Of a stretch of DNA of 23,175 nt, positions 504-19,800 are shown piece after piece; the stretch's first letter is position 1, and each line of letters begins with the position of its first letter. Location: IMG/VR virus record IMGVR_UViG_3300008217_000105, positions 1 through 23,175 of that record; one strand, 5' to 3'. Under the pieces are notes generated by a model that was not told where the DNA came from, did no database searches, and worked only from the letters and a program-made list of their open reading frames with translations. Origin of the DNA: a virus. Position numbers and translations under genes: made by a program.

Positions 504-799
504 GCAAGAAGGACCTACAAGGCTTAATCGATGAAGCGCTTGGTAATATTCGCAATGATCGAAAGATTGCACGAGAATTTTTAAATGAAATTGCCAATCA
601 AATAGCAAATGATCCGGACCAAAATAAACATTTAAGTCCCGTCGCGGCAAAGCATGTAGAGTCCCTGCAGCGCTCTAATGAGCAGCTAGTTAAAATAATT
701 GGCCTGAGTCAGAAAAGACAAACACAAGGTTTTGGACTTTCAGAAGAAGACAAGAGCAGCCTGTTTGATATAATACAGGAGGAATCTAAAAGTGGCTAA
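500..799 (+). CDS. Small helical phage protein, function unknown
   Basis: The protein has 99 residues, starts at GTG (VSKKDLQGLIDEAL) and ends at TAA 797-799. It overlaps both neighbours (4 and 8 bases), so it is translated as part of the same block. The sequence is charged and almost wholly helical by eye: DEALGNIRNDRKIAREFLNE, a short linker with HLSPVAAKHVESLQ, a helix RSNEQLVKIIGLSQKR, and an acidic end EEDKSSLFDIIQEE. No catalytic motif, cysteine or membrane segment is present. Small helical oligomers of this size in late regions include small terminase subunits and transcription co-activators such as T4 gp33, but it has no gp33-type clamp tail and I see no HTH good enough to call a terminase. 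A small-terminase role is only a guess from size, helix pattern and the ending (acidic, hydrophobic). I do not recognise the family. Confidence 0.75.
   Translation: MSKKDLQGLIDEALGNIRNDRKIAREFLNEIANQIANDPDQNKHLSPVAAKHVESLQRSNEQLVKIIGLSQKRQTQGFGLSEEDKSSLFDIIQEESKSG
777..782 (+). promoter_or_regulatory. Strong Shine-Dalgarno for the GTG start at 792
   Basis: AGGAGG sits 9 bases before GTG at 792-794, inside the end of the previous gene. It fixes the start of the peptidase/spike gene although that start overlaps the upstream stop by 8 bases. Confidence 0.75.
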
Positions 800-2219
800 A
801 AAGCTTTTTCTTGATCCGTATGCCTTCTCTGATCCCGAGTCCGCACGAGATTTATATTCAAATGCTATTCGTAAGTCGTTAGGATATGGCGTTCCTTTTC
901 TTGAAGATAATAATTATGTTGCAAAAGTCATATCTCCGCCGCTCCCTTTAAAGCCGGGCGATGCTGCTATTTTTAATAATCCTGAAACTCTACTTCGCGG
1001 CGGCAACGTTGGAGAGGAAACTGCCGAGTTTGTTGGCGGAATGCGTCCACAACCAGGCGTCCTGTCTAAGTTTGTTTTTTATGGAAGAATAGAAAAAATT
1101 CATGCGCCTTTTTTAGAGGAGCCGTGTCCTATAGCTTATGCAGTCGACGCTGCTCAATCTTATAACTTGATTATGCAGCACACACAATTTCACTCATTGG
1201 CAACCACCACGGAACTTCCTGCAGTGGGAGATCTTGTAAATGTAAGATTGAATAAAGGAGATCATGGCTGGGATTTGCAATATGGGCATTATGTTGGAAT
1301 TTACGAGCGCAGCACAGATACGATTGTGCCTTCTCATCTTCCTGTTACAGCAAAAGCAGCCGCGGCCGCCGCAGCCGGCGGAGCTAGCTCCCTGGGCAAT
1401 GCCGATGCAGCGCCGGGATTTTCGGGAGATTATACTCCACCTGAAAACGCAGCGCCGGTGTCGAATGGCGCGATCTTGGCCGGCGCCGGTCCAGCAGCTA
1501 ATCCAGATTTGCTTACTACATATTGGGATTGGATTAGTCGCCTTCTGCCAGAGGGTTCAATCTGTACGTCTGGATTAAGAAACCAAGCTAGACAGAATAG
1601 GATTATTAGAAATTTCTATAAAGGCGCATGGGCGACTGGCCAGCCTGGTGATTCTTTTACGACGCCCCCGGGACCCGAGACAGATGAGGAAATTACATAT
1701 GCGCACGGTCAGGTGCGCAAGAAGCCATGGCCCGGGAAGATCGTGGGTCGTAGGGTTTCCGCAGACCCTCATGGTCACGGTGGCGGTGGTGCTTTAGATA
1801 TTTCATTTCCTCGGCTGCAGCCCGATCCACTTCCGAATGGGAAACGAGGAACACCAAATTTGGGAAAATTAATGGAAATAAGGGCCGTGGTTGAGGCTGC
1901 GAGTGAAGATCCTAATATAAAGGTATCGACGCGGCCATTTCACAAGGGGAATTACCCGAGCCTATATGAAAAGGCTAATAACTGCATACATGTTGAAATA
2001 AATATTGATGGTACGGAGTCCTTTGATGAGGTTTCCTTTGAAAGAGGGAGAGTGGCTATTGTAGCCAAGCTGGGAGGTTCTTCAGCCACCGCCGAGTTTG
2101 TCGGCGGTCATGTTAATGGAATCATGTACACTGACCGCGACGAGCACGCAGCTGCGCAAGCCGCGGCCCGCGATGCATTTGACGAGGCCCGAGCTGCCAG
2201 GCTGGCCGCGCTGCTATGA
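792..2219 (+). CDS. Baseplate hub/spike protein with OB-fold-like region and M15-type peptidase motif
   Basis: The product has 475 residues, GTG start with AGGAGG upstream, stop TGA. Residues about 95-172 (KFVFYGRIEKI to LPAVGDLVNVRLNKGD, then YGHYVGIYE) have the strand pattern of a gp5-type OB-fold; this is by eye. An Ala/Gly-rich linker follows (about 186-205, seven Ala in a row). The second half carries H329-G-G-G-G-A-L-D336, an exact match to the H-x-x-G-x-A-x-D zinc motif of M15 peptidases (VanY and phage L-Ala-D-Glu or D-Ala-D-Ala peptidases), and C-I-H400-V-E402, the place of the third zinc ligand. Such enzymes cut peptide cross-links or stems in peptidoglycan. The residue three before H400, usually Asp/Glu, is Asn397, so activity is uncertain. 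The end (about 450-475) is an Ala-rich helix. It sits immediately before the spike-like gene. I infer a role like T4 gp5: cell-wall opening during injection. TAEFVGG occurs at residues 77-83 and again at 433-439. An alternative is a plain endolysin, but the N-terminal half and the context argue against it. Confidence 0.6.
   Translation: MAKKLFLDPYAFSDPESARDLYSNAIRKSLGYGVPFLEDNNYVAKVISPPLPLKPGDAAIFNNPETLLRGGNVGEETAEFVGGMRPQPGVLSKFVFYGRIEKIHAPFLEEPCPIAYAVDAAQSYNLIMQHTQFHSLATTTELPAVGDLVNVRLNKGDHGWDLQYGHYVGIYERSTDTIVPSHLPVTAKAAAAAAAGGASSLGNADAAPGFSGDYTPPENAAPVSNGAILAGAGPAANPDLLTTYWDWISRLLPEGSICTSGLRNQARQNRIIRNFYKGAWATGQPGDSFTTPPGPETDEEITYAHGQVRKKPWPGKIVGRRVSADPHGHGGGGALDISFPRLQPDPLPNGKRGTPNLGKLMEIRAVVEAASEDPNIKVSTRPFHKGNYPSLYEKANNCIHVEINIDGTESFDEVSFERGRVAIVAKLGGSSATAEFVGGHVNGIMYTDRDEHAAAQAAARDAFDEARAARLAALL
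1020..1039 (+). repeat. Short direct repeat, copy 1 (encodes TAEFVGG)
   Basis: A 20-base stretch matches 2088-2107 at 18 of 20 positions; both differences are third-codon changes. Both copies are read in the same frame as TAEFVGG in the peptidase/spike protein. Confidence 0.7.
2088..2107 (+). repeat. Short direct repeat, copy 2 (encodes TAEFVGG)
   Basis: Second copy of the 20-base repeat seen at 1020-1039. The two copies bracket the OB-fold-like region, the linker and the peptidase region. Confidence 0.7.
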
Positions 2220-2227
2220 AAACATAA

Positions 2228-3214
2228 ATGCCAAAAGAAACTAAAATATATGATCCGGAATGTAGCGAATGGGCTAAGAAAACGGGCCATTGCAAAACAA
2301 TTGATGAATTGATTAAAGAAGGCAACGCACCAAACATGGTGCCTTCGCCCAGCGGCCTATATCATACAATAGGCCCCCCGCAGACGATTCATTTTAAAGC
2401 AGCCAGAAATGGTCTTCATATGCAACAAGGCGGCAGCTATATTGTATTAGGGTCCGACAGGCCCACTTCTGTTAGATCTGGATACGGCGCCAAAGGTGCG
2501 CAAAATGCAGCAACTATTGATTTAGTTGTTGGAAGGATGTCTAGCGCACACCCCAAACCAGGGACTTTTGTTGATAATAGTTTTTTTGCAGATGCTGCTA
2601 GAATTTATATTAGTCAATTAACCAACGTTGATACAAATTTTGGTTTGGCTTCGGGGGGAAAATCCTTAAGTCAACGAGCATCCTCAGCAGTGGTTTTAAA
2701 AGCAGATGCCATCAGAATTATTGGAAGAGAGGGAATCAAAATTGTTACTGGACAAGGCGAAGGCGTTAAAGGTTTTGGGGGTGGCGAACCGAATTCTCGC
2801 GGCGGCAAAATAAAGCGCCCGGCGCCTCCAATTGAGTTAATTGCTGGTAATAATATTGGGCAAAGAACCATTCCGGGGACTCCTTATAAGACCGGCGGAA
2901 CGGTGGATCTGCTGCAACCGATTCCACTAGGGAAAAATGTAAGAGACGGATTAGAAGAATTGAGTGACATTGTTGGTGAATTATGGAGTGCGGTGTTTAA
3001 TTTTGCGTTGCTTCAATCAGGTATGAACGTGGCTTTTGGAGTAAGTCCCTTTCCTTGGCAGCCAGCTGCCATGGCCGCCATGCAACCATCGATCTTTACG
3101 GGTGTTCTCAATTCATTATGGCATACTCGCGCTAATGTTACTATGTGGAAATTAAATTATCTCAATCCTGCTGGTTATAAATATATTTGCAGCAGAAGTG
3201 TTAGAACAACTTAA
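2228..3214 (+). CDS. Beta-rich spike/needle-like virion protein
   Basis: The product has 328 residues; ATG at 2228 is 9 bases after the upstream stop, without a clear Shine-Dalgarno, so coupling to the gene before is likely. It is rich in Gly, Ser and alternating polar/hydrophobic strands: GLHMQQGGSYIVLGSDRPTS, GAQNAATIDLVVGRM, ADAARIYISQLTNVDTNFGL, and VLKADAIRIIGREGIKIVTG. The last is typical of the stacked-strand (beta-helix) C-terminal spike of gp5-type proteins, where runs such as KADxIRIxGREGIKI recur. Residues about 235-328 become helical and hydrophobic (ELSDIVGELWSAVFNFALLQ), perhaps for docking. With the preceding peptidase gene it would form a two-gene version of the T4 gp5 puncturing device. 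No enzyme motif is visible. Structural assignment moderate; exact position in the baseplate is inference. Confidence 0.55.
   Translation: MPKETKIYDPECSEWAKKTGHCKTIDELIKEGNAPNMVPSPSGLYHTIGPPQTIHFKAARNGLHMQQGGSYIVLGSDRPTSVRSGYGAKGAQNAATIDLVVGRMSSAHPKPGTFVDNSFFADAARIYISQLTNVDTNFGLASGGKSLSQRASSAVVLKADAIRIIGREGIKIVTGQGEGVKGFGGGEPNSRGGKIKRPAPPIELIAGNNIGQRTIPGTPYKTGGTVDLLQPIPLGKNVRDGLEELSDIVGELWSAVFNFALLQSGMNVAFGVSPFPWQPAAMAAMQPSIFTGVLNSLWHTRANVTMWKLNYLNPAGYKYICSRSVRTT
3176..3183 (+). promoter_or_regulatory. Possible T4-type late promoter TATAAATA
   Basis: TATAAATA, the exact T4 late -10 consensus read by gp55-type sigma factors, lies 50 bases before the ATG of the 2229-residue gene, inside the end of the previous gene. 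A late sigma is encoded in this window. Against it: the octamer also reads as Tyr-Lys-Tyr codons, and it occurs at least twice more inside genes (10604-10611, 21577-21584), so chance is quite possible. Confidence 0.25.
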
Positions 3215-3232
3215 ATATAACGGATTATTAAG

Positions 3233-6200
3233 ATGGCTGAATCAAAATTTTTAAGACACCAAGATCCATCTGGAGACGGTCTTCCCGATGTATGTGATGA
3301 ATTTGTTGCAGTAGAAGAACCGTTATGTGAAGATTGCAAATGTATTAAAAATGGCGCTGCAATTACTCCTAATTGGCGCAGTCTTGATAGTGAAGAGTCT
3401 TTCCTAAATTATAAAAATTGTTTATATCAAGTTGCTATCGAGACGAAATATACCACCACAATTGATGAGTCACTTTTAGAAAAAGAAGATTTAACTGATA
3501 CTGAAGAGGCCGAAGGAATGGCCGCGCGGTATGAAGAATATGCAGAACAAGCAATAACGGCTCTTCTAGAAGAGAATAATAAAGATACTGGCGCCGCAGC
3601 ACTAAGGTCTATGTCAGTAGCTCTTCAAAATACGGATTACGATTTAGCTGCTAGACCAAAATCAAGATTGAGATTACTTTACTCTATTCCATATCATGAC
3701 TTATGTTCTCTTGATGATGCTGCTGATGAAGAAGACACCGATGATGCGGAAGAAGAAGGAGCAGAAGTTGAAGTAACTTATGAGATTCAGGATCTTAAAG
3801 CGAAACTTATTGTTGTTAGAAAGGGCCTCTTTCTGTACGGAAGGTATTTAAGAGTTTATCGTTCTATTGATAAAGGGAATTTATTTTTCCAAGATGGAGA
3901 TGCTGCCGGGAAGGTATTTCCCTTGTTCGATTATGGGGACCGAGGAATTTTAGGTGGCTCAACGATGGCAAAAATTTTGCCGCAATTAGACAATTTTTTA
4001 AATACAAAGGGATATAATATTCGTGGTGTTGATGTGCACGGCAGCTGCCGTGCTGGTTTTATAAATCTCTATAGAGATAAAGTTGAGACAGTTACATTCA
4101 CGTTCACTAAAGAATATGAGTTAAAAAAGCTAACGTTATATACACAGGGATGTGGAGAAGAAAACCCAATTATATTTATTGATAAGTTAAAACGCCTAAA
4201 AAAGAAGTCGGCTTGGAAAGATCCTACCGCCATGGCGTATTTAGTGCAATTAAATGAGATGACGGTTCAACTGCAAGCCCGCGAGCCAGTTCCATGGTTG
4301 GAATTTGTTAAAAAATATACATATCCTACAATTTATTCTTCTGTAAACCAAGGATATGCGAATACCGATCCGGATAATACAGGCGCCAGCTGTATTGCAG
4401 ACGCGCTTCAAAACGAAGCAAAACAGTTTGGCGAAGATATTTTAGATCCAATTTTCAGTATTGGGGACGCAATTGCTTATCGATTTCATGAGAATATATG
4501 TCGAGAGAAATCTGAAGAAGTTATTCAAGACGAAGTAGATGTTGGTCTGTTTTGGTCGCCTAAAAAGAAATCATCTCCCGAAGGCGCCTCTCAAGGGTCC
4601 CAAGAGGGCCCTACTACTACTTCGATAATATACACGGACGTGGAGGGTGTGGAGGTCCCAGCAGCTAAAAATAAAGATGGTTCTAGAAAACAAGTTCTTA
4701 AAACACTTTCTGATATGGCCGCTGAACAAGCTGGTCAAACCATAGGAATGGATGACGCGACTTTTGATGAATTTTGCGAAAAAGTCATTAATGATAGTGT
4801 TGGGTTTGATTTGGAGGAGCTTTGGGAAGAGGGTTTCAATAAGATTAAACTTTGCGGCCTTTATAGCTTGATGATTGATTCTGTTAAATGTTTGTTTGCT
4901 GGCCTTACTCTTGAAGAAATGTTAAGCACCGTCACAGAAAGCGCACTCCGCACCATGAGTCTTGAAAACTTTGGAAATTTGTTTATTGGGTTACCTCCTG
5001 ATAAACAAGCAGAATTGGACGCGTTGGTTAAAAAGAAGTTTGAGAATGGTGAATTTTTTGCTGGAGGAACCTCTGCTGGTCAACAGGAAATTGCTGATGC
5101 CCCTCCTTTTTCATTAGAGGGAAAACTAGATTTTACCAAACCTTGCAAAGACAAAAAATTAGTAAAATATCAAGAAGAGGAGCAAATGCAGCCGGGCCCA
5201 ACGGGAGAAACGTCAGTTCCAGCTTCCCCGATTAAAGAAGCGTCTGACGACACCAGAAGAACACTCGCCAAACAACTTGATCCCAGCTCCGCCGCCAAGA
5301 AACAACTAAACCCCAACAATGTTTTTGAAGCGTATATCTTGGCGTTATTAGAAGTATATTCCGAAAATTATTTTGAGCTTTTAGCAGAATTAAACAAATT
5401 TCCTGGCGCCCAACTGATTGCAACACTTATCGCAATTTTTGATTGCCCAAAGTCCCCCATCTTAGATCCTAGCGCTTTTGACTTTATCAAAGATATACAA
5501 TTGCCGTTTTGTCGGAATAGTAATGACATTACGTGGCCAGCGCTTGCAAATGAATCCGGATGGTTTCCGGGTACAAAAGATATTAGTGGTGCGCTGTTTG
5601 TTGCCATCCAATTTGCGATTCAAAAACTTGTTGTAACTTTATTGATGAAGTTGATGATTAAAATTTGTGGGACTTTGGGAAGTGCAGCATGCGCAGCGCC
5701 GAGTATTATAGGAGCTGCTATGTCCGGAAACAATATGGCAGATTTGATTAAAGATTCTCTTTGTCCTGACGCTGATGCAGAACAAATCGATAATACAATT
5801 GTGGACATGTTTGCCAATTTGGGCCTTGGTGCTACAGCGTTTGCGAACACAGAACAAGTAATTGATTTTGCAGGTGATATATCTTCTGCGGTGACAAGAG
5901 CGGAATTAGCCCGCGCGTTTTTAGGGGAATGTTCGAGCGAATTTTTAACAGTTGTGGATTCGTTAATAGTATACGAATATCCTGATTTTAGAGCAGGCCT
6001 GAGCAACAAAAAGAATATTTGCAGTTTTTTTGGAGACATGGGCAATTTAATGCCATCAGACTTTAGAGAGCAATTAAGGAATTTTGCCGAGGGCTTACCA
6101 GAGAATGATGGCCTACCAGCTAATCCTTCTTTATGCGCAACTCCACAGCAGATAGAAACTTTTAATCAGTTGAGATCTGATATCTTAGATGGCCGAGCGA

Positions 6201-9200
6201 CCCCCCAACAGATTGAAAAACTAGGAGATCGTTCTGGGCCCTTGGAAGATTTAAAAGATTTGGCTGGTGTGCTGCAGGGTGGCCCTACTCGATATCTTGC
6301 TGATAATTTACCTCCTTTGATTTCTGATCCCGGGTGCGATAATGGTCTTTTGCCGTATGAAAGCGAGGAGGCGAAAGCCACTACTGTGTCTGCTTTGGGC
6401 GGCTCGTTGGAGCAGTTGAAAATTGATTTTGCATATGATATGCTTGGCAACGGCCCGAGTAGTGGTAGATGGGGACTTATTAATATGATTCTTTCAGACA
6501 CAATGGGGAACCCTCTCACGGCGCATATGAGAAAGGCCTATAATCAAAATGATTATGTTGATTATTATACTGATACTAGCGTCGATGCAGATGTTACCCT
6601 GGACGACGATTCCACGGTGGGCACCGCCGGTGGCTGGTTTGATATTAGTGCCGCCGGCCTCGTCGCTGATATAATTACACCCCGCGTGTCACGAACCTCC
6701 CAACAAAGGGGGGCATTTCCATACAAAGTGGCTGATTGGCTGGAAGAATATATGCAGACGAACCTGACTGCTAGTTTTGCTTCTAACAATGAAATTCAAA
6801 AAGATATTAAATCAGATCCAATATCTTTTGCTTCTGCCTCCATTAAGACTTTTGGTAGTGGAATTAATTTACTAAAGTTGCCAGATTTAGGGTATAATGT
6901 TGATACGCGCATAAAGTTTGAGGATAAGGAGATATATTTCTTAGAGAAAGCTCGAAAGAAAGATCCAGATTTAACTTTGAGCTTTCAAGATAATTGCAAG
7001 GGATTGTGGGATGACGATGAAATCGATTCTATGTTTTCATATGGGTTCGACTTAGAATTTTATTTATCGGATTTGGTATCTGGTTCGACCGAGGGTATTC
7101 ATAATCGTGTCGGAGATAATGCAAGAATTAAAATTTGGGACCGTTATAATACTGCCGCCCGAACAGATACGACATTGGCAGCGTCTATACCAGATTTGTT
7201 AAAATATTATAAACCGTTGCAATATAAAATATCAAAAATGATTCTTAAGCCTGACAATAAAAAAATAACCGATTCTTATGAGAGAAAGTTTGAATTTTTA
7301 GCCACTGATAATATTTTAGACGAAATAGATTTGGCGCCATATCCCAAATTTGTTTCTACTTTTAGTCGTCAGCAATCTTACCTTCCACAAATTGTTCTTT
7401 TAGACGAGTTAATCGGCGCCGGCACCATAGAAAAAAGGGATATCAAAAGTGGTTATGACTCAATAATGTCTGACGTGACAGAACAACTTATTTCTGTAAT
7501 TGCTAATAATGAAGATGCTTTTCTGTATGGCGCTGTTTATGATGATTTGTCTTTTGACGATGTTCAATATGTAGTAGACGAAGGCCAAACAGAATCAGAT
7601 GGCGGAACAAATTATTATGAGGCGTTAGTAGATGATGGAGAAGGAGGCACCCGAACCATTAAAAATGATGATCAAATTATGGGCATAAGCTTGATGCAAT
7701 ACATGTCTGGATCTGACGAAAATAGAGTAATGTATCTTGATCCTAACACTTTTGGGGGATCATATATGAATCCTCCACTTTATGTCAAGCCGCTTGAAAA
7801 CAAAGGCTGGATGGGCTTCGTTGAGGCGATGTTTCCAGAAATAAGTCCGTGCAAGCCATATAGAACAGATATAATTGATTTTGAGGATATCCAACAAAAA
7901 ATAGAAAATTCATATCCGACTATTCCAGAAGATCAGCGTTTGAAATCGGATCCAAATTGTATAATTGAAGTTCCCTATGGGAGAATTTTGGAAAGACCAT
8001 CTGTTGCTGGTTTAGAAAGTGTCATTACAGCGACTCTTAGAATTTATGCAAGTACTTTTTTCATTAAATCGTTGGCCACATTCACCAAAATATATCCTAA
8101 GTTTCCAGATACTTTCAGTAGTCTTTACGCGGCTTATATCGTTGAGGAAATGGAAGCTTCTCTTAAGGATGCTCAAAAGGCATTTTGGGAAGCGTTTAAT
8201 CCTTTTAAAGATACCAAATTTTGGTATGCATTTTTAGAACAGTCGGTTCAGCTTTATTCTCGTCGCGTGGATAATGGAGAGATTAGTGATCCACCTACAG
8301 CAGCTGTAGAGGCTTTATCTCACCTTAATGATGTGCAAGAAAATTATCCATATCCAAATAAGAATACTTTAAAAAAAGCTCGTGGTACCGGTGAAGCCGG
8401 CGCGTTTGAATCATTGAAACACTTTAGACAAGACAAGAATCTTGAAGCCATTCAGGCCTCGGAAGAATATGCGAAAGTAATCCTTAAAGAAATGGTGGTT
8501 GAGCAGTTAAATTATATGGGAGAGAAATTTATAGAAAATTTCAAAAATGTAGGAATGTCTCCGGATATATTTGATTTGAACTATTTTATTTTTCAGAGTT
8601 TATCACAAGGTGGCGAGAGCTTGACATTGGATCAGGAGATCAAAGAAGAATATGCGGACTTACCAACAGAAGGCGACGAACATTATACAAGCGGAGGTTC
8701 GTTTGCTTTGCCAGATGGCACAGAATATGTTGGATATTATTTTGTTAAGACGGACGAGGAGGGAAATCCGACTTACGCAGTGGGAGAATTTGAAGTTGAG
8801 GGAGTAGAAGATGAAATATTGACTCCTTTCGCGAATCAAATTATAGTTCCGATAGGGGACATAGATGAATTAGGAGTCAGTACGGAGTCGTCTACTAGCA
8901 AACCATTTGTTATTGAAAAATATATTAGTATTAATGGCACCGCGTACGCGCCAAGTACGGCAGTGAGTATGATTCAGGATAATGATGATCTTGCTAAAAA
9001 TATTTCTGATGTTTACCCCGGAACCCTAGAGACGGTAACCGCTCCGAGCGGCAGAATTGTTGGCCTTGAAGGAGAATTGGGCGTTAGGCATGGCTTAAGA
9101 TTTTCCGCCATAATTAGTGGCACTACAGCTACACTTGTTGAGGTGGAAATAGATGCTTTAGATGTTCAGCTCTCAAAAGTAGATCCGCTAGCGGGCGACA

Positions 9201-9922
9201 GTAAATTACTATTGTGTTTGATTAATATGCTTAAAGCAGATGATAAATTTAGATTAGTTGCAGAATATATTTTCCCATTGAGGAAAATTACAGCCACGCT
9301 TGCCATATATAATGGTTTAGCGTTTCTGCCATCAATTGGCGAGAAGGTGGTTAAAGATAATCAAACTATTGGGAAGTATTATTGGGGAGAGGCAGATGAA
9401 TTGCCTTCGATTGCCGACCGTAGCAAAAATACTATTTATACCAAGCCAGGAGTTGCCTTGACTTTTGATTCAGGCGGAAATATAGCTATTTATCCGCCTG
9501 ATTATGCCGGCCCGAATACTCCAACCGATGAAGAATCCGTGACAGTCACCGATGCTGATGGAAACGCGACTGACTATGATCTTTCTCGTCCCAATGGAGG
9601 TGGATGGTCAAGCAAGCTTGATAGAGATCCGGGCGTTGGAGGGGGTCTTTTTGTTAAGGAATGGGACAACTGGGATCAAACCTTATTGAGAAACTCCAAG
9701 AGTAGGATTAAAAAGATGTTCAAGGGTTATTATAATTCTAGAGAATTTGATGCAGCCCAAACAGACGATTCAGCTGATAGTCCAGGCACTGTAGTAACTA
9801 ATGAATTTAAAGAAAGATTTAAGAAACCAACTGGTCAAAACCTTCTTCCATTCTGGAAAAGGAGAATGCTTCGAACAAATCCCTTTAATGCAAGCGGAGA
9901 ATTGTGCGAAGAAAAAGATTAG
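3233..9922 (+). CDS. Giant tail/baseplate-region protein of 2229 residues, unknown family
   Basis: One uninterrupted frame from ATG (MAESKFLRHQ) to TAG; no good Shine-Dalgarno precedes it. Residues 11-22 (DPSGDGLPDVCD) fit a thrombospondin type-3-like calcium site, followed by cysteines at 32, 35, 37 and 63. Residues about 155-180 are very acidic (EEDTDDAEEEGAEVE). A Pro/Ser/Thr linker spans about 650-700. Residues about 787-833 are hydrophobic (ALFVAIQFAIQKLVVTLLMK onward, then a Cys/Ala/Gly-rich part). The mid-part mixes helices and acidic loops. The last 100 residues are basic (RNSKSRIKKMFKGYY, FWKRRMLRTNPF). No heptad tape-measure pattern, enzyme motif or known fibre repeat is evident. 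It lies between the spike genes and gp25, so a hub or wedge part or an internal scaffold of the baseplate is the best inference. I do not recognise the family; whether it is in the virion needs protein evidence. Confidence 0.85.
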   Translation: MAESKFLRHQDPSGDGLPDVCDEFVAVEEPLCEDCKCIKNGAAITPNWRSLDSEESFLNYKNCLYQVAIETKYTTTIDESLLEKEDLTDTEEAEGMAARYEEYAEQAITALLEENNKDTGAAALRSMSVALQNTDYDLAARPKSRLRLLYSIPYHDLCSLDDAADEEDTDDAEEEGAEVEVTYEIQDLKAKLIVVRKGLFLYGRYLRVYRSIDKGNLFFQDGDAAGKVFPLFDYGDRGILGGSTMAKILPQLDNFLNTKGYNIRGVDVHGSCRAGFINLYRDKVETVTFTFTKEYELKKLTLYTQGCGEENPIIFIDKLKRLKKKSAWKDPTAMAYLVQLNEMTVQLQAREPVPWLEFVKKYTYPTIYSSVNQGYANTDPDNTGASCIADALQNEAKQFGEDILDPIFSIGDAIAYRFHENICREKSEEVIQDEVDVGLFWSPKKKSSPEGASQGSQEGPTTTSIIYTDVEGVEVPAAKNKDGSRKQVLKTLSDMAAEQAGQTIGMDDATFDEFCEKVINDSVGFDLEELWEEGFNKIKLCGLYSLMIDSVKCLFAGLTLEEMLSTVTESALRTMSLENFGNLFIGLPPDKQAELDALVKKKFENGEFFAGGTSAGQQEIADAPPFSLEGKLDFTKPCKDKKLVKYQEEEQMQPGPTGETSVPASPIKEASDDTRRTLAKQLDPSSAAKKQLNPNNVFEAYILALLEVYSENYFELLAELNKFPGAQLIATLIAIFDCPKSPILDPSAFDFIKDIQLPFCRNSNDITWPALANESGWFPGTKDISGALFVAIQFAIQKLVVTLLMKLMIKICGTLGSAACAAPSIIGAAMSGNNMADLIKDSLCPDADAEQIDNTIVDMFANLGLGATAFANTEQVIDFAGDISSAVTRAELARAFLGECSSEFLTVVDSLIVYEYPDFRAGLSNKKNICSFFGDMGNLMPSDFREQLRNFAEGLPENDGLPANPSLCATPQQIETFNQLRSDILDGRATPQQIEKLGDRSGPLEDLKDLAGVLQGGPTRYLADNLPPLISDPGCDNGLLPYESEEAKATTVSALGGSLEQLKIDFAYDMLGNGPSSGRWGLINMILSDTMGNPLTAHMRKAYNQNDYVDYYTDTSVDADVTLDDDSTVGTAGGWFDISAAGLVADIITPRVSRTSQQRGAFPYKVADWLEEYMQTNLTASFASNNEIQKDIKSDPISFASASIKTFGSGINLLKLPDLGYNVDTRIKFEDKEIYFLEKARKKDPDLTLSFQDNCKGLWDDDEIDSMFSYGFDLEFYLSDLVSGSTEGIHNRVGDNARIKIWDRYNTAARTDTTLAASIPDLLKYYKPLQYKISKMILKPDNKKITDSYERKFEFLATDNILDEIDLAPYPKFVSTFSRQQSYLPQIVLLDELIGAGTIEKRDIKSGYDSIMSDVTEQLISVIANNEDAFLYGAVYDDLSFDDVQYVVDEGQTESDGGTNYYEALVDDGEGGTRTIKNDDQIMGISLMQYMSGSDENRVMYLDPNTFGGSYMNPPLYVKPLENKGWMGFVEAMFPEISPCKPYRTDIIDFEDIQQKIENSYPTIPEDQRLKSDPNCIIEVPYGRILERPSVAGLESVITATLRIYASTFFIKSLATFTKIYPKFPDTFSSLYAAYIVEEMEASLKDAQKAFWEAFNPFKDTKFWYAFLEQSVQLYSRRVDNGEISDPPTAAVEALSHLNDVQENYPYPNKNTLKKARGTGEAGAFESLKHFRQDKNLEAIQASEEYAKVILKEMVVEQLNYMGEKFIENFKNVGMSPDIFDLNYFIFQSLSQGGESLTLDQEIKEEYADLPTEGDEHYTSGGSFALPDGTEYVGYYFVKTDEEGNPTYAVGEFEVEGVEDEILTPFANQIIVPIGDIDELGVSTESSTSKPFVIEKYISINGTAYAPSTAVSMIQDNDDLAKNISDVYPGTLETVTAPSGRIVGLEGELGVRHGLRFSAIISGTTATLVEVEIDALDVQLSKVDPLAGDSKLLLCLINMLKADDKFRLVAEYIFPLRKITATLAIYNGLAFLPSIGEKVVKDNQTIGKYYWGEADELPSIADRSKNTIYTKPGVALTFDSGGNIAIYPPDYAGPNTPTDEESVTVTDADGNATDYDLSRPNGGGWSSKLDRDPGVGGGLFVKEWDNWDQTLLRNSKSRIKKMFKGYYNSREFDAAQTDDSADSPGTVVTNEFKERFKKPTGQNLLPFWKRRMLRTNPFNASGELCEEKD

Positions 9923-9949: not shown

Positions 9950-10318
9950 ATGGCTTCTTTTGGTGTTGCTCTTCCATTATCATTAGATACAGCAGATGGC
10001 TTTGTAATGCTTAAGGATATTAGGAACCTTGCTAAGCAAAATTTGAAAATGCTTATATTAACACTTCCGGGCGAGCGAGTGATGAAGCCAAAGTTTGGAG
10101 TTGGACTTTCTCGATATCTTTTTGAAAATTTTGGACACGATACCATGGCCCAAATAGAATCTAAGATTAGAGAACAAGTAAGCATTTATATGCCGGCAAT
10201 TCAGATTCGTAGTATTACATTTGGCAATACAGATCCAGATAATAATTATTTGGGTATTGCGATAGAATACTCTATTGACAGCATAGGAATAGCAGATTTG
10301 TTGGAAATAACTACTTAA
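9950..10318 (+). CDS. Baseplate wedge protein, gp25-like (GPW/gp25 family)
   Basis: The product has 122 residues, close to T4 gp25 (132). Its core carries the family hallmarks: SLDTADGFVMLKDIRNLAKQN, then ILTLPGERVMKPKFGVGLSR (the PGER...P.FG..L signature), then a helix with IESKIREQVSIYMPAIQIRS and closing strands. gp25/P2 gpW proteins form the inner wedge that joins sheath and baseplate, and have an evolutionary link to lysozyme-like/sheath-initiator folds; they bind gp6. The next gene is the gp6-like partner, 15 bases on, as in T4 and P2. The start ATG has GAGGT upstream. Assignment is strong. Confidence 0.93.
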   Translation: MASFGVALPLSLDTADGFVMLKDIRNLAKQNLKMLILTLPGERVMKPKFGVGLSRYLFENFGHDTMAQIESKIREQVSIYMPAIQIRSITFGNTDPDNNYLGIAIEYSIDSIGIADLLEITT

Positions 10319-10333
10319 AAACGAGGGAATTCA

Positions 10334-12130
10334 ATGGCAGATGAACAAACAAAAATAGTACCAATCGATTATACTCACCGTGAATATAGCAGTATTCGTC
10401 AAGATTTAATGGAGATAGCGGAAAGACTGTATCCCGATACATTTAAAGACTGGAGCGAGGCATCTTTCGGCGCACTGATGATAGACGCGGTAGCATATGT
10501 GGGCGATCAGCTTTCGTTTTATTTGGATTATAATGTTAATGAGACGTTTTTGGATACAGCATATCAGTATAACAATATTGTGCGCCATGGTCGGATCCTT
10601 GGATATAAATATCGCGGCCCGGCCTCAACATATGGCACTGTAAGTATGTTTGTATTAGTGCCAGCCTCTACTACTGGCCTGGGTCCCGATACAGAATATA
10701 TTCCAGTTGTCAAAGCAGGGACGCAATTTACATCTCAAACTGGATTAAATTTTGTTTTGACAGAGAATGTTGAATTTTCAGATGTTGAGAATGTTGTGGT
10801 TGTAGCCACCGTTGATACAGATACTGGCGCACCTACGTATTATGCGATTAAAGCAACGGGAACTGTGGTGTCAGGCTATCTTTCTGAGGAACAAATAAGA
10901 ATTAATGCTTATGAGCGATTTTTAAAGGTAAGATTGGACTCAAATAATATAGCAGAAATAATTTCGGTTACTGATACTGAAGGAAATGAGTATTTTGAAG
11001 TAGACTTTCTTGCGCAAGACATGGTATTTAAAGAGATTGCCAATACCAATTATAAAAGCGATAATGTCCCCTCTATCTTAAAACCCTATTTGATATCTAG
11101 AAAATTTGTTGTTGAGAGGGATGTAATAAATACTTATTTACAATTTGGCAGCGGAAAGGAAAATGAATCAGATGTAGTAGCAGATCCTCAAACAGTGGCA
11201 ATAGATACTTTTGCGAAAAATTACGTAACAGATACAACGTTTGACCCCACAAGATTATCAAAAAATGAAAGTTTTGGTACTGTGCCGTCAAACACGACTT
11301 TAACAGTTACATATAGAATTACAAACGCAGCGAATTCAAATGTAGGAGCAGGGGGTGTGAATGCCGTTGGAATTGCAGAGATGAATTTTACTAATGCGGC
11401 GAGTTTGGTTTCTTCAAAAATGCAAGACGTTACCAATTCTTTAGAGGTGTCCAATGAAGAACAAATTATAGGAGATGTTTCTTCGCCAACTTCAGACGAA
11501 GTTAAAAGAAGAATATTTGATACATTCCCCACACAAAACAGGGCTGTGACACAATCTGATTACGAAAATATTGTATATAGAATGCCTGAAAAATACGGGT
11601 CGGTAAAAAGATGTTCTGTGCAGAAAGATCCAAAGGCGCAAAAAAGAAATTTAAATTTATATGTTGTTTCTGAAGACTCAGTAGGAAAACTAACAACAAC
11701 AAACAGCACTATTAAAAACAATATAAAAACATGGCTAAATCACTATAGGATGATGAATGATACTGTCGATATTCTTGACCCTTACATTCTTAATATAGGC
11801 GTAGAATTTACCATGAAAGCAGCAACAGGCACGGATAAGTTTACCCTTATTGAAAGTGCTGTCGACGCCTTAATAACAAAATATAGCACTCCTCTTTTTA
11901 TAGGAGAGCCGCTTTATGTGAGTGATATTTATGCTGAATTAAAAAATGTCACTGGTATTTTAGACGTTTTAACTGTAACTTTGAGGGCGAAGACCGGAGG
12001 AAATTATTCAAATGCGAATATAGATATCGATGCAAATATGTCTCCGGATGGGACTTATTTAATAGTACCAGCAAACGCTATTGTAGAAATCAAATATCCA
12101 GTCACCGATATTATAGGAAAAGTTGTATAA
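10334..12130 (+). CDS. Baseplate wedge protein, gp6/baseplate J-like
   Basis: The product has 598 residues (T4 gp6 has 660), ATG with GAGGG at 10323-10327. The N-terminus shows the conserved T4-like pattern: IDYTHREYSSIRQDLMEIAE, YPDTFKDWSEASFGALMIDA, VAYVGDQLSFYLDYNVNETF, then VRHGRILGYKYRGP. The middle is beta-rich. Around residue 390-440 comes RRIFDTFPTQNRAVTQSDYE and MPEKYGSVKRC, the segment typical of baseplate J-like proteins (R-A-V-T..DYE). In T4, gp6 dimers with gp25 form the inner ring of the baseplate, and they rearrange when the sheath contracts. Its stop overlaps the next ATG by one base (TAATG), so the next gene is probably coupled. Assignment is strong. Confidence 0.93.
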   Translation: MADEQTKIVPIDYTHREYSSIRQDLMEIAERLYPDTFKDWSEASFGALMIDAVAYVGDQLSFYLDYNVNETFLDTAYQYNNIVRHGRILGYKYRGPASTYGTVSMFVLVPASTTGLGPDTEYIPVVKAGTQFTSQTGLNFVLTENVEFSDVENVVVVATVDTDTGAPTYYAIKATGTVVSGYLSEEQIRINAYERFLKVRLDSNNIAEIISVTDTEGNEYFEVDFLAQDMVFKEIANTNYKSDNVPSILKPYLISRKFVVERDVINTYLQFGSGKENESDVVADPQTVAIDTFAKNYVTDTTFDPTRLSKNESFGTVPSNTTLTVTYRITNAANSNVGAGGVNAVGIAEMNFTNAASLVSSKMQDVTNSLEVSNEEQIIGDVSSPTSDEVKRRIFDTFPTQNRAVTQSDYENIVYRMPEKYGSVKRCSVQKDPKAQKRNLNLYVVSEDSVGKLTTTNSTIKNNIKTWLNHYRMMNDTVDILDPYILNIGVEFTMKAATGTDKFTLIESAVDALITKYSTPLFIGEPLYVSDIYAELKNVTGILDVLTVTLRAKTGGNYSNANIDIDANMSPDGTYLIVPANAIVEIKYPVTDIIGKVV

Positions 12131-13887
12131 TGGCCATTAAAAGATATACGGCTTCAGCTGATAATACTGTTGTCAATGCTTATGAGCCCAATTTGAGAAC
12201 GCGCGGAACAGGCGCGAACATGGGCGAAGCAGATATATTGGAAACGTTTTCAATCTACGGCCGTGTAACAACAAGTTCACAGGAGCTTTCCAGAATTCTT
12301 ATTAAGTTTCCTGTCACAGATATTTCTACCGATAGGACGAATGGCGATATTCCTGCTAGTGGAAATGTTAGTTTTTATTTACGAATGCACAATGCTGAAC
12401 ACTCCAAAACGGTACCAAGGGATTACACCTTGTCAGTTTTTACGGTTTCGCAGTCGTGGCAAGAGGGAGTCGGTTTAGATCTAGAGGGATATAAAGATTT
12501 AACTGTTGGGAATGAAGGGTCTAACTGGATGAGCGCTTCGAACACGACTTATTGGACAGATGCCAACGATACTTTGTTGGCGGGAGGTTCTTATATTACA
12601 GGCGCCGAGCCCAATGGCGTGGGACCCAATGCAGATGTTGATACCGAAATATATATTTTTAAACAGACACTAACGACAGGCTTGGAAGATATCGAACTTG
12701 ATGTAACTCCTGTTATAGAACAGTGGATAGCGAGCACTTATTCAAATTATGGGTTCGGAGTCCATTTATCAGCCAGTTATGAGGCATATATATCTGGAAC
12801 AGCAGACGATACGGTCAGTCGAAAGCCCGGTCAGCTAGCATTAGATAACGATGATGATACACAAAGTGTTATTTATAACCCTAGTGGTTCAACTACATCA
12901 TATTTCACAAAGAGATTTTTTGCCAGAGGAACAGAATATTTCTTCAAGCGCCCAGTGATTGAGGCGCGATGGGACTCTGCAACAAAAGATGATCGCGGGA
13001 ACTTTTACTACAGTAGTTCGCTAGCCACCGCTGCAAATAATTTAAATACCATTTACTTCTATAATTATGTCCGCGGCCAACTGGCTGATATACCCAACTT
13101 GGGCACGGACAAACGTGTATATGTAAGTATTTATTCCGGCTCTACTGGAGGTTTTTATAGCGATCAAGGTGGAGGCGATGGAGACGATCTGGCGCCATCG
13201 GATTGTGCTGCGTCTGGAACAACGTCGGAAGATACCGGCAGTGTGCAAATATTATCTGCTGATGATCCAGGCCATGTTCGTAGTGCTTATTTAACAGTCG
13301 CGACAGGCGGAATTGTATCAACAGGAATTTATAGCGCCTCCTTTACATATACTGGTTCAAAATGTGGATTAGATACGATATACGATGTGTGGTTTACTGG
13401 CAGCGATACGATTACAAACGCCAACGATGCTGCTATACAATTTTTTACTGGAGCCATCAAGCCTATAATACTCAGAGCAGAAGGAAGAGCTTCGCGCCCC
13501 ACTCATTATATGAATATTACAAATCTTCGGGATAAGTATCGCGCCGATGAAGTTGCTCGCCTTAATCTATATGTTAGGAATAAATATTGGGATCCAACAA
13601 TTTACACTGTAGCTGTTTCTTCTCCGCCCACAACTACCATTGTTAGTGCATCCTATAGTGTTTATAGAGTGATAGACGCCTATACTGCTATTCCTTATGG
13701 AACTGGCAGTGATAAACATACTGTGCTTTCTTATGATGTTTCTGGAAATTATTTTGACTTTGATATGAACTTATTAGAGCCTGGGTATGCTTATGCATTC
13801 AAATTCTCTTTTTACGATAACGGACTTAGTTCTTGGGTAGAACAGTCCGATACGTTTAAGTTCAGAGTAGAAGACTATGAGTATTAA
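12130..13887 (+). CDS. Baseplate-associated protein with DNRLRE/CBM96-like jelly-roll domain
   Basis: The product has 585 residues; ATG overlaps the gp6-like stop, with AGGA at 12115. Residues about 5-215 follow the pattern of DNRLRE-type (CBM96-like) domains: YTASADNTVVNAYEPNLRTR, a strand ending ELSRILIKFPV, then NVSFYLRMHNA, YTLSVFTVSQSWQEG, and IELDVTPVIEQWIASTYSNY followed by GFGVHLSAS. This fold is common in bacterial surface and carbohydrate-binding proteins. The rest is beta-rich, with Thr/Ser/Gly repeats such as SGSTGGFYSDQGGGDGDDLA, and ends in an Ig/fibronectin-like part (MNITNLRDKYRADEVARLNL to FRVEDYEY). In T4 the gene after 6 is 7; this protein does not look like gp7. Likely a peripheral wedge or glycan-contacting part; the role is inferred from domain type and place. 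Its end overlaps the next ATG by 11 bases. Confidence 0.7.
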   Translation: MAIKRYTASADNTVVNAYEPNLRTRGTGANMGEADILETFSIYGRVTTSSQELSRILIKFPVTDISTDRTNGDIPASGNVSFYLRMHNAEHSKTVPRDYTLSVFTVSQSWQEGVGLDLEGYKDLTVGNEGSNWMSASNTTYWTDANDTLLAGGSYITGAEPNGVGPNADVDTEIYIFKQTLTTGLEDIELDVTPVIEQWIASTYSNYGFGVHLSASYEAYISGTADDTVSRKPGQLALDNDDDTQSVIYNPSGSTTSYFTKRFFARGTEYFFKRPVIEARWDSATKDDRGNFYYSSSLATAANNLNTIYFYNYVRGQLADIPNLGTDKRVYVSIYSGSTGGFYSDQGGGDGDDLAPSDCAASGTTSEDTGSVQILSADDPGHVRSAYLTVATGGIVSTGIYSASFTYTGSKCGLDTIYDVWFTGSDTITNANDAAIQFFTGAIKPIILRAEGRASRPTHYMNITNLRDKYRADEVARLNLYVRNKYWDPTIYTVAVSSPPTTTIVSASYSVYRVIDAYTAIPYGTGSDKHTVLSYDVSGNYFDFDMNLLEPGYAYAFKFSFYDNGLSSWVEQSDTFKFRVEDYEY

Positions 13888-16800
13888 AAAGCTTTTTGAA
13901 TCTACTGAAATAGCTCGCAATTATCTTTCTGACACAAACGAAAGAGACCTGTATAAAAATGTTGAATCGGCACAAAATGTTGGTGCGATATCTACAAAAC
14001 AGCAAAGATTTGTTCCGCAGATAGATTACACAGAGCCTACAAACTTTGCCAAATATGGCTCAGCTAGGTTATATTACCAATCTGCGATAAATAGAATTCT
14101 TGATTATTATCCGTATGATGGTTCAGAGTATGAAATTACAGAGTTTCATAACAAATCATTGGACATTGAGGAATTTGTATTTGACAATCTTTATCCTCGC
14201 ACAACTGGATATGTGCTTTTAAGCGCTAATGGTTGGGGGACATTGCTTGGTAGCTTGTCGGGAGGATATGGAACACCCAGCGTCGATGGCGCATATGACT
14301 ACGAATACATTGAATTTACCGGCGGCCCGCATACCATAGGTATTGTCGGTGAGTCCTCTTCTTCCGCGGGAGTTGCTGTTTCGGGTAGCACAACCGCAGC
14401 CATATTTCCAGATGACAGCACTTCAAAAAGAATATATTCCAATGTGTATGATACAAATATTTACACAACTGCGGGCTTAGAATCAAGTTATGGAACTGGT
14501 TCCAGGGCTTCTAACTTGGAATGCAATTTTGATAAAGGAGTTACAATTGAGTTTTGGCTCAAAAAAGATGCCTTCGACACAGCCAAAACAACTAAAGAAG
14601 TTATTTGTGACATTTGGAATGGTGAAGATATAAACGTTCATAATTATGGACGCATTTTACTTAGTATCCGAGGAGATACTGATCCTCCGTTCTTGTTGAC
14701 AGTTAAGAGCGGCTCGACTGGGCCCATTGAAAAGGCGCTAGGAAGCGGCCAGGTTACAGAAGGCACGTTGACAAATAGCGCTTGGAAACATTATGCCATT
14801 ACTATGCAGAATTCTGGTAGTGGATTTATTACGAAATTATATGTAACGGGCGCCCTTGATGATACAGACACCAGCACTACGACGAATATAGGTACATTAC
14901 CATCGAAAACCAGCACTTCAGGCGCCATGGGCGCCCGCATTGGGGCACTTATTGCGCCAGCTCCAGGCGCCACCACTACCCGCGCCGGCCAAGGTAAACT
15001 AAGCGCTTCTTTGGATGAATTCCGTTTTTGGAAAGCGTCACGCAATTCTGATGAGATTGGAAGGAGTTGGTTTACACAAGTAAGAGGCGGAACAAACACA
15101 GATATTTATAACACGACCCTAGGAGTATATTACAAATTTAACGAAGGCATAACAGGCACCGCGAGCTTGGATAACAATGTTTTAGACTATAGTGGTAGAA
15201 TTTCCAACGGTAATTGGATTGGTTATGATTCAACGATTCACGATCAGGCAGTTCGTGGAACCTATGGAAGAGCGACCGGCTCTGCGATTGTGGAATCAAC
15301 AGCATCTGCTACAGAGTTTAAAGATCCGATTATAAGAAGTGGTCATACTGATGTTACAAGTCTTAAAAAGGATTTGGAATCGAAGGGTGCAGAACACGAT
15401 CATAATAATAATTCTGCGTTTAAGAGTTTAATTCCAAGTTGGGTTGTGGATGCCCAAGAGGCTTCCGATGGCAAAGATTTCGTGCCGGTTTATGATAATA
15501 ATATTGAAATGGTTTCTCACGTTGTGGGTTCTTATTTTGATAAGCTGAGATTACAAATAAAGGCGCTCCCGACGTTTAAACAATTGAATTATACTAGTGC
15601 GTCCCAGACCCCGTTGCCATTTGCACAGCATTTGCCTCAATCACTTGGTCTGTATATGCCAGAGTTATTTATTGACTCAACTGTTTTAGAAAGATTTATG
15701 AATCGCACTCCTTCAATGAAATTTGAAGGGGATCTTACTGAAACAAAGAATTTGATTTATCTAAATATTTACAACAACTTAGCTAATATTTATAAGAGCA
15801 AAGGAACAGAAAAATCAATTAGAAATATATTTCGGTGCTTTTATCTTGATGATAGATTGCTTCGACTAAACGTTTATGCCAGCAACGAGACCTTTGAACT
15901 CAAGGATAATCTTAAACAAACGCTGATTAACAAAAGAGTACTTAACTTTAATACTGCCAGTAATACCACTGCTGTTGTTTATCAAGCGCGCCAATCTGTT
16001 GATTATCTTTTAACTAACGGTTGGTGGTCGACATATGAATATACTGCGAAATCGAATTTGGTGGGTTGGTGGCGTCTGGATGCTGATGTATCATCTGGCG
16101 GCACCGGCTTCCCCAAAGTTACCGACGACAGCACTAATAGCAACGATGGCACGTTTGACGCCGCCGGCGACAGGCCAGCATTTTCGGAAGCATTGTATCC
16201 CGCTACCTACATTCAAACCGCGAGTTGCACTTTTAATGGCGCCGCAACCGCCGTAAATATCGGGACTGCCGCAACCTGGGATGACATTATTGGCCCAGAT
16301 GGTACTTCTAAAATGTCAATTTCCACTTGGGTTTATAAAACTGGCGATGGTGGTAATAACCTCGGCCGTATAATTGACTTTAGTACGTCAGACGTCTATC
16401 TTTATACGAATTCAGCTGACACACTTATATTCTCCGTGGGTGCTTGGGATACTACTAGTGGAGTTTGGTATGCCCCGGTCGGCGGCATTACTCAAAACAC
16501 TTGGCATCATATCGTTGTCACATATGATGCAGGCGCCGAAGCAAATGATCCTATTTTTTATCTGGATGGAGCGCGTGTTGCAACTAGCGTAACTACACAG
16601 CCCGAGGGCACTTATGCCAATTTCACCGGCCATGCTTGCTATATAGGAAACAATGGCAATGAAAATAGAAGCTGGAAAGGAAACCTCGCAGATATAGCCG
16701 TTTGGGATTCAATTTTAACTGAACAGGATGCCATCGCGCTTTACAATGCAAAAAGGGGTGTTGGACCTGATAGCAATGCGGCTAACACTCGCGGCTATAT

Positions 16801-19800
16801 TTCCGGAAGTCAAGGCGCCGGATTGTTGACTGACGCCGGCGAAACGGGGGGCGACATTGTTCGTGGTTATGAGTTCCCTTATGGGTTTACAGCCGAAGCA
16901 GATGTTATGTTCCCAACTAGTCCGGCCGACGTTACTTTTAATAAACAATACACAGAAGTTTCGTTGTTTGGGATGCATTCTGCCTCAATAGATGATGGGG
17001 GCACCCGGCCGCTTAATGATACAACATGGTTCCCAAATGATGCTGTTAGTTTCCAAGTGTATGCTGTAAAGGAATCTATAGATTCAAAAAATGTATTTTT
17101 TAAACTAACTTCCTCCTTGGCGTCGGACGGTACCGCGACCGATTCAACGGCTTATGCTTTATCTCCGGCCGAAGATTTATCCGATCCCTTTGCGGGATTA
17201 ACCAGTAGCTACTTCTACGATGTATATGACAATACTCGTTGGAATATTTCAGTAAGATTAAAGCCAAGCAGTTTTGGTGTTACTGATATGGTTACTGGCT
17301 CCGTCAATAGCGGATATAGATATGATTTAGTGTTTAAAGGGTTAAACTCTGATTTTGGCACTATTCAAAATAGTTTTACTTTAACTGCTTCTGTTTCAAA
17401 AGCCGCCGGTCACAATCTATTAAAGTCTGCAAAAAGATTATATGTGGGCGCCAGACGAGAGAATATTACTGGTTCTGTTTCTAGTTCGTGTGACACATTG
17501 TTTGTTGGTGCCAAATATTGGGCAAAATATGCAGATGACTTGACTTTAACGCAGCATGCTTATGATTTAGATAACGCTGGAATTTCTGGATCTTGGCGTA
17601 ATGTTTCTCCTCTTGATATGAATCTTAGCGGAAGCGGTAGTGTTCTCAATTCAAACATGCTGGCGTTGGATTGGAGATTTAGCGATGTTACTAGTTCGGA
17701 TGCAAACGGTTGCTTTTATGTAACTGATTTTAGTTCAGGCTCCGCGCTTCTCACACAAAGTTACGGCTGGGTTGGCGGTGTTGCTGGATATCAACATGTT
17801 GGTTCTGGATCATTTTTCTCGGCATCGGCACAAAATGCTATAGTAAGCCAATCGATTAATGCGTTTCAGTTTATTAACCCCGAGTATGCAGTTTCATCTG
17901 ACATGATTAAAATTATGTCAGATGATGACAAATATTTTGGTATTTATGAAACACCGCCAGATTATCGTTATGTTTTAGAAAAGAGCATGTATAACGCCAT
18001 TTCAGAAGAAATGCTAGATTTCTTCGCCGGCGCCATTGATTTTCATAATTTAATCGGAGAGCCAATTAATAGATATCGCGGGAAATATAAGAGACTTGAA
18101 AAGTTAAGGGAAATCTTTTTTAGAAGAGTAACCGCAGGCTCTGGGAGCAATAGCGACGGCGTTACAGACGTAGAAAAGTTTATCGAATATTATAAGTGGT
18201 TTGATGACGCGATTGCAGCCGTGGTAGGGCAGCTGCTACCGGCCTCGGTCGATTTTAACGCAGATGTTTATAATACAATTGAGAGCCATGTTTTAGAGCG
18301 CAATAAATATCGAACTAAATTTCCCACCATAAAGGATAGAAATATAGATCCGGAAGCGTCCACGGCATCGGACTTTGGCGCTTGGGAATCTACAGACCCA
18401 TCATCCCCGCGCAAAACAAATATGGCTGCATATTTCTGGAAATGTGAAGCAGATAGAGCTTCCCCGGAAATTACTTCTAATGATTCAACAATTGACAGTC
18501 AGAGAAACAACATTCGAACTATCGTTTGTTCAGAGCCGACTTATCCCGGGACTTTACCGACCCTTAGTGATGCATCGGGAAGCGAATATAAGGCACGATC
18601 AGCCACAAGAAGAAGTAGTTTTGTAAAAATCTCGGGTAAAATTGGTAGACAGCGCGCTAGTAGTCCTAGCACGGTCCATGGCGGCGTAAATTTTGGAGGA
18701 AACAAAAATATACATTTCACTTATAACGCGTTATATCCTGCAGGACCGGTTAATCGAGATGGCTCTGTTTTTGTTCCTTTGAATGTTTTGTATGCAGAGA
18801 CAGACGACTTGGTGCCATTGGACGAGATTGTAGCCAATGTTTCCAAGGCAATCCCAAATAGAAAGCTCAAGAGAATATTTTCCACTGTGCAACATGGTCG
18901 CGATTGGGAAGAGGGTTACGGCTATGCAAACACCAAGTCGACTTTTTCATTTCCGTTTAATATTATGAGTTCTTCGGTGGTTAGTGGATATAACAAAGCA
19001 GTATCAGATAAGGTATTGGCTAATTTAGAAGTTGTTAACTTGCACAACGATGCGTATGGTGATGATATGGAAATTCCCATGCAGGGGACATTTACATCGT
19101 ATCACGTCGGTGGTCATCAATCGCGACATGTTCCATTAAATACGGGGTCATCATTAGATACATATCTGACACGGGCGGAAGCTTGGAAACTTTTGCTTGG
19201 TAAATGTGTTGGTACATCCGGCGCTATCGGCATGGTCGGCGCCGATTATCCATGGCCCGAGGCCAATAACATAGGTGAAAGGCCATATCCAATGACTGCT
19301 TCTCATAAAGCAGTTTATTATCGTGATTACATTGCTAAAAGACCGGTTAATATCAGAAACATTTCACAATCATATAATGCGCCCCTGGGGAATTTTGGTC
19401 ACAATTACGAAATTGTGAGTTCTGTAGGATCATTTTCCAATCCTAGAAGATTTGTTGAACAGCAACCAACATTACCGACAGTGGCTCTAAACATAACCAA
19501 CGGAACAGTTTCCGGTTCTTCAAATATCATGAGCTTTTTTCCGACTATATACCGGGATGATGATTCACACTTTGATTTTGGGCTTACATATGCTCCGGTA
19601 CAGTTTACCGGATCTGGTAACAAATCTGTAATCGTGGGACGCTTCGGTGCCCCTGGTGGCCCTGATACAATGGCTCGCGGGTTCCTAGATATTCGCGGCG
19701 CAGAATATTCACCATATAACGTGCATACATATAGGAATCTTAGCGTTCTCAAGCCATTCCAGGCTTCTAGTTCGATTTCTCAAGCCACAGGTTCCGGCGT

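Follow-up and report, generated by a model that had tools for sequence, protein, structure and literature searches.

The 23,175-base virus record IMGVR_UViG_3300008217_000105, analysed over its entire length and hereafter called the window, encodes a 2229-residue protein at positions 3233-9922 that is previously undescribed and has no described relative by sequence, profile or fold searches. With a probability of roughly one half, this giant protein belongs to the virion as part of the baseplate of a T4-like contractile tail, in the hub-wedge region, and a baseplate role is the simplest reading because its gene is obligately linked to baseplate genes. Cysteines gained and lost in pairs at facing positions, as in a disulfide-bonded protein, point to a disulfide staple within the chain. 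In a large and widespread group of uncultured viruses, a protein of about 2.2 thousand residues is obligately tied to baseplate genes.

The linkage was found throughout the family. Among the members with at least 400 nt of downstream sequence, gp25 was recognized by profile directly downstream of the giant gene in 118 of 119, and the open reading frame (ORF) at 9234-9623 of the remaining member (L119) reads as gp25 by eye, giving 119/119. The gp6 gene lies within 1.5 kb downstream in all testable members (85/85), and a relative of the window's 328-residue upstream protein is encoded directly upstream, again in all that could be tested (59/59). The genes of the block share one strand, with a gap of 13-62 nt between the giant gene and gp25. 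An earlier sequence-only reading had placed the giant protein between spike and gp25; for gp25 this is upheld by Pfam and PHROGs alike, while the spike was named by eye and no search confirms it, the 2228-3214 gene giving only weak or chance-level matches, although it represents a conserved family nonetheless. The product of 792-2219 had no match in Pfam or PHROGs. This puncturing-device gene varies among relatives, and in L006 two ORFs (4863-6602 and 6569-8077) occupy its place, one with weak tyrosine-phosphatase matches (PF13350, E-value 0.00025, just under its cut-off) and the other matching the tail-lysozyme hub family phrog_27932 at 4.4e-5, the only such match.

The giant ORF is confirmed as real, intact and under purifying selection. 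It is far beyond chance, since full-length relatives exist at 34-63% identity and since the comparison with a 98% relative (L002) gave nonsynonymous and synonymous divergences (dN and dS) of 0.010 and 0.050 over 1583 codons, a dN/dS of about 0.2. Searched with one protein only, IMG/VR yielded five relatives, and alignment-based scans counted 78, 333 and then 345 stretches encoding the family, of which each scan gave at most 80 loci. One further locus came from a genome collection, on a 4.6-kb contig assigned to a Flavobacteriales metagenome-assembled genome. In total 172 family ORFs were collected from 171 loci, among which certain contigs occur twice; after the window was added and rows more than 97% identical were removed, 121 non-redundant members were aligned. 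The 43 full-length sequences aligned first, the window included, are as little as 31% identical among themselves, and the 107 rows longer than 2000 residues span 2005-2461 residues. Conservation extends along most of the protein and is similar in the N-terminal and C-terminal halves.

Searches for a described relative gave no convincing match. No match to the giant protein was found in Pfam or PHROGs at E ≤ 0.1, nor any PDB chain by sequence at E ≤ 1, and tblastn against 50,697 phage records found nothing with the window protein (E ≤ 0.01) or with members L083 and L047 (E ≤ 1). Profile searches were likewise negative in all 11 related or reference phage records (0/11), comprising Mel-JY01, immuto, LR756508, P-RSM6, HTVC008M, S-TIM5, P-SSM2 and T4, searched with profile A4 and then A3, and AG-345-F15, RM378 and LR756511, searched with A4; positive controls matched in the A3 eight-record and A4 three-record searches, the A4 eight-record search having been run without a control. 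The whole T4 genome gave nothing at E ≤ 1 with either profile, and no sequence-profile similarity to the T4 wedge proteins gp6, gp7, gp8, gp10, gp53 and gp25 was seen. The best probability between profiles of both halves and 38 tail and control proteins (from T4, HTVC008M and G001) was 6.3%, and the C-half bore no resemblance to the 1240-residue protein that P-RSM6 encodes ahead of gp25. Two candidates were set aside, namely a 'protease' PHROGs family matched by only 3 of 37 C-half members (best 0.00067) and LotA, which the C-half profile matched in the PDB at 0.0057 over 66 residues, a hit taken as chance. Literature searches found no description of the family. The earlier assignment to an unknown family is therefore borne out by sequence, profile and fold searches, including the profile search and structure prediction that it had proposed.

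In size, and in its helix-rich N-half with a hydrophobic stretch, the giant protein recalls a tape measure. This role appears extremely improbable, given a separate candidate by the tube and sheath, a crude heptad coverage of 1.3% with one hydrophobic stretch where a long coiled coil and several membrane-type stretches would be looked for, and a globular alpha/beta C-half. In G001, a 195-kb relative, the sheath, the tube and the 883-residue tape-measure candidate, which has eight hydrophobic stretches, lie at 171-179 kb and the giant gene at 49-56 kb. The tail cluster of G001, about 110 kb away from the giant gene, runs sheath (1082 residues), tube, a phrog_150 protein, the 883-residue protein, a 411-residue protein, gp53 and a 1452-residue protein, so that the giant gene is not beside the tube or sheath genes, and the earlier view that the giant protein is not a tape measure gains support from the separate candidate. 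The 883-residue protein was matched in four and the 1452-residue protein in three of nine long relatives, G001 being in both counts; as these records may be fragments, absence of a match means little. Large virion proteins of unassigned place are sometimes ejected, so that an internal head or ejected protein was also considered; it is very unlikely in view of the obligate linkage to baseplate genes and of the major head protein gene of G001, which is placed elsewhere than the giant gene.

The C-half was modelled with confidence as a globular alpha/beta fold. Foldseek with this half against the PDB gave 254 matches at E ≤ 10 and none at E ≤ 0.001; in VIA its best Z was 3.5, where missing rows do not exclude a fold, and the poorly modelled N-half reached a best Z of 5.5 with Lpp20 over residues 46-165. 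Among viral proteins in BFVD, A0A516M7H3 matched both halves in order (4.6e-15 for the N-half; 2.4e-27 for the C-half, with template modelling scores of 0.48/0.48), as did A0A1B1IUZ9 (1491 residues) at 3.6e-14 and 1.7e-5, while A0A516MAR9 and A0A1B1IUR6 matched the N-half at 5.4e-14 and 2.6e-5 and the C-half weakly at 0.031 and 0.015. All but A0A1B1IUZ9 are held in BFVD in two pieces each. The predicted folds of these four resemble the halves of the giant protein in the same order at a sequence identity of just 8-16%, and they are probably its distant relatives as judged from the models.

These results also bear on whether the giant protein is an enlarged gp27-type hub, the centre piece of the baseplate, which has two tube-like barrel domains. 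Hub genes often adjoin puncturing-device genes, as the giant gene does. Against this, hub folds are well represented in the PDB and none was returned for the C-half at the threshold above, the half-profiles gave only the low probability already mentioned, and relatives hold another large protein (1452, 1337 and 1141 residues) beside gp53, a place that in HTVC008M, where gp5 lies on the other side, is taken by a tail protein. An enlarged hub is on balance doubtful. The 1452-residue copy of G001 itself gave no match worth naming in phages or the PDB; a gp27-like label given to it by eye and from position found no support from phmmer against the PDB or from hhalign.

Cysteines make up 1.18% of residues on average in the 107 rows longer than 2000 residues, compared with 0.01% in gp25 and 0.28% in gp6. 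Seventeen are invariant in all 33 full-length non-redundant rows, of which 88-94% also have each of another four. In the predicted hairpin, 54 of the 105 readable members have an outer pair (C978 and C998) and 41 an inner pair (C982 and C994), none has both, eight have none and two a single cysteine. Counted in the 121-row set as neither, one, the other or both partners, the positions 978-998 gave 49/1/1/54 and 982-994 gave 66/0/0/42. When residues 955-1045 were left out of the tree, the partners 978/998 changed jointly in 11-12 of 13 independent contrasts and 982/994 in 10 of 10, and never in opposite directions; a local tree (residues 900-1075 without the four columns) lent less support, with joint change in 7/7 for 982/994 and a mean of 5.9/7 for 978/998. 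Hitch-hiking on haplotypes was rejected as the source of the pattern, as 14-16 changes are still required on the local tree, from which the four columns had been removed, and the runner-up among linked columns reached 0.54 bit against 0.99. A further pair, 898/934, occurs jointly in seven rows and singly in none. In the N-half model residues 971-984 and 991-998 form two helices with a short turn between them, at moderate confidence, and a shift of both partners by four residues, or one helical turn, is what a bond joining antiparallel helices would lead one to expect. Thioredoxin-type matches, two per genome in all three long relatives examined (G001, G002 and G003), are not specific; no Erv1/ALR redox helper was found in the three, where the control was likewise silent.

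At the N terminus, residues 11-21 follow the pattern D-x-[DNST]-x-[DNST]-[GFSNM]-x2-[DE]-x-C, and we take the loop to resemble the calcium loops of thrombospondin type 3 and EF-type domains. Such a loop, together with disulfides, which are common in surface-exposed proteins, would suit a receptor-binding or peripheral baseplate adhesin. This role is nevertheless unlikely, as no fibre signature was found in the Pfam and PHROGs searches, domains of laminin-G type occur in another giant ORF downstream, and both halves are similarly conserved whereas adhesin tips usually vary. A factor or chaperone that helps to assemble the spike-wedge complex and stays out of the virion is about equally unlikely; the constant position between spike and wedge genes would fit it, but in our judgement a chaperone would not usually reach 2.2 thousand residues or have cysteines in a pattern that suits a stabilised particle, and the giant protein is conserved along most of its length.

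Returning to a baseplate component of the hub-wedge region, several observations weigh against it. Presence in the virion and placement between hub and wedge are inferred from gene order, which cannot by itself separate hub, wedge, cage and assembly factor; the earlier suggestion of a new hub or scaffold component is plausible from the fully conserved order. Mel-JY01 and immuto, which are among the closest cultured phages as judged by gp6 and the G001 capsid protein, share the gp25-gp6 pair with the metagenomic LR756508, and all three lack the giant protein (Mel-JY01 has ORFs of 343 and 176 residues at its place), so that a basic baseplate can do without it. The N-half was modelled poorly, with a predicted local distance difference test score (pLDDT) of 59.6 and a predicted template modelling score (pTM) of 0.46. 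The window copy has neither variable pair (N978, S982, I994 and G998), and the cysteines could bind metal instead, a metal site being possible because the invariant cysteines 968 and 1035 are near the hairpin in sequence.

If the hub-wedge placement is correct, the giant protein would be a large rigid piece bridging the central puncturing device, made of the products of the two upstream genes, and the wedges formed by the gp25 and gp6 products. Its fold would be held by the conserved cysteines, at least some of them in disulfides rather than metal sites, and by the N-terminal loop, presumably through bound calcium; so reinforced, it might keep the baseplate armed until host contact. A more elaborate form of this reading is a new kind of redox-set baseplate part, in which calcium and disulfides staple a cage or collar that surrounds the spike. 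This part would become oxidised once the virus is released, hold the tail in its armed state and give way at the host envelope; it would be kept by a large uncultured T4-like lineage and tuned by sliding the staple one helical turn. As a whole this is quite improbable. The paired cysteines offer a testable handle, since the prediction from them is that disulfides form in a protein synthesised in the bacterial cytoplasm, and the family could serve as a marker gene for these viruses if the reading is true. The sequence-only reading was partly supported overall; it overlooked how the cysteines are arranged, the calcium-type loop at the N terminus and how large the family is.

Table 1. Coordinates of the giant-protein gene, its parts and its neighbours in the window.
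Feature	Position	Strand	Remarks
Puncturing-device candidate	792..2219	+	peptidase M15/VanY-like motif by eye
Upstream neighbour, spike/needle candidate	2228..3214	+	328 residues; function by eye only
Giant protein ORF	3233..9922	+	ATG start, single stop at end, 2229 residues, uninterrupted
Loop, residues 11-22	3263..3298	+	pattern present in 73/79 members with readable N terminus
Cysteine knuckle (C32, C35, C37), residues 32-37	3326..3343	+	C37 in 33/33 rows, C35 in 29/33
Sole strongly hydrophobic stretch of the giant protein, residues 787-805	5591..5647	+	
Helical hairpin, residues 971-998	6143..6226	+	alternative cysteine pairs 978/998 or 982/994 in relatives
Variable linker joining the halves, residues 1121-1160	6593..6712	+	mean conservation 0.21, gap fraction 0.47
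C-half, residues 1137-2229	6641..9919	+	confident predicted fold, pLDDT 78.4, pTM 0.79
Residues 1481-1680	7673..8272	+	among the most conserved stretches; second half mainly helical
gp25, baseplate wedge	9950..10318	+	Pfam GPW_gp25 4.3e-14; PHROGs 4.4e-21
gp6-like baseplate wedge	10334..12130	+	PHROGs 5.2e-21; separate 598-residue ORF with 1 cysteine

Hydrophobic stretches near residues 787-805 were above the cut-off in many, not all, of 43 members. Other genes of these loci were also recorded. Upstream of the baseplate genes, the window's first ORF (3-503) and L006:3867-4571 are both similar to late sigma factors (PHROGs, 0.001 and 3.8e-5 respectively), so that the block does not consist purely of tail genes, as the earlier reading had expected it to. 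An ORF of at least 3099 residues (13877-23173), open at the record end, carries the two laminin-G type stretches (PF13385, 3.7e-24). A cysteine dioxygenase-type gene (phrog_7851, 4.2e-57) lies upstream of the block at L006:362-760, and related genes occur in 8 of 49 long loci. The large proteins beside gp53 (L087:9387-13745, L150:9166-13179 and L151:3277-6702) are cysteine-rich, with 15, 18 and 9 cysteines respectively. Tail sheaths in relatives are about 990-1080 residues long (L088:3-3248, L150:82-3123 and L151:12567-15530), compared with 659 in T4.

Among known systems, the T4 order gp53-gp5-5.4-gp6 resembles the present block in that a puncturing device is followed by gp6 on one strand, but T4 has no giant protein at that place and its gene 25 (115404-115802, -) lies 36 kb from gene 5 (77959-79686, +) on the opposite strand, so that the earlier remark on a missing T4 counterpart between gp5 and gp25, which are not neighbours there, carries no weight. 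Analogy with phage Milano and AlgoCIS gives a suggestion of function only, because the giant protein does not resemble gp6 and matches no component described so far. In AlgoCIS the Alg11 protein is, we assume, the gp6 counterpart; a cage made from domains of a gp6-like protein is not what the giant-protein loci encode, where gp6 is an ORF of its own. Domains of Alg11 build the AlgoCIS cage, and Alg11 also holds the spike by forming part of the iris, whereas the present loci have a separate 598-residue gp6 and no fold match was seen; the likeness lies in a sizeable part of the baseplate that surrounds the spike and has a working disulfide, the intrachain cage-iris bond of Alg11 being needed for firing on the cell surface (PMC13314943). 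In the baseplate of Agrobacterium phage Milano, disulfides between chains link wedge, sheath and receptor-binding proteins, whereas the evidence for the giant protein concerns a pair within one chain; shared is a contractile-tail baseplate linked through cysteines (PMC10811340). Covariation in the giant protein was examined within the chain, and the sheaths of two relatives have 4 and 3 cysteines in 1013 and 987 residues. Should the disulfides prove real, disulfide-set baseplates would extend past phage Milano and AlgoCIS.

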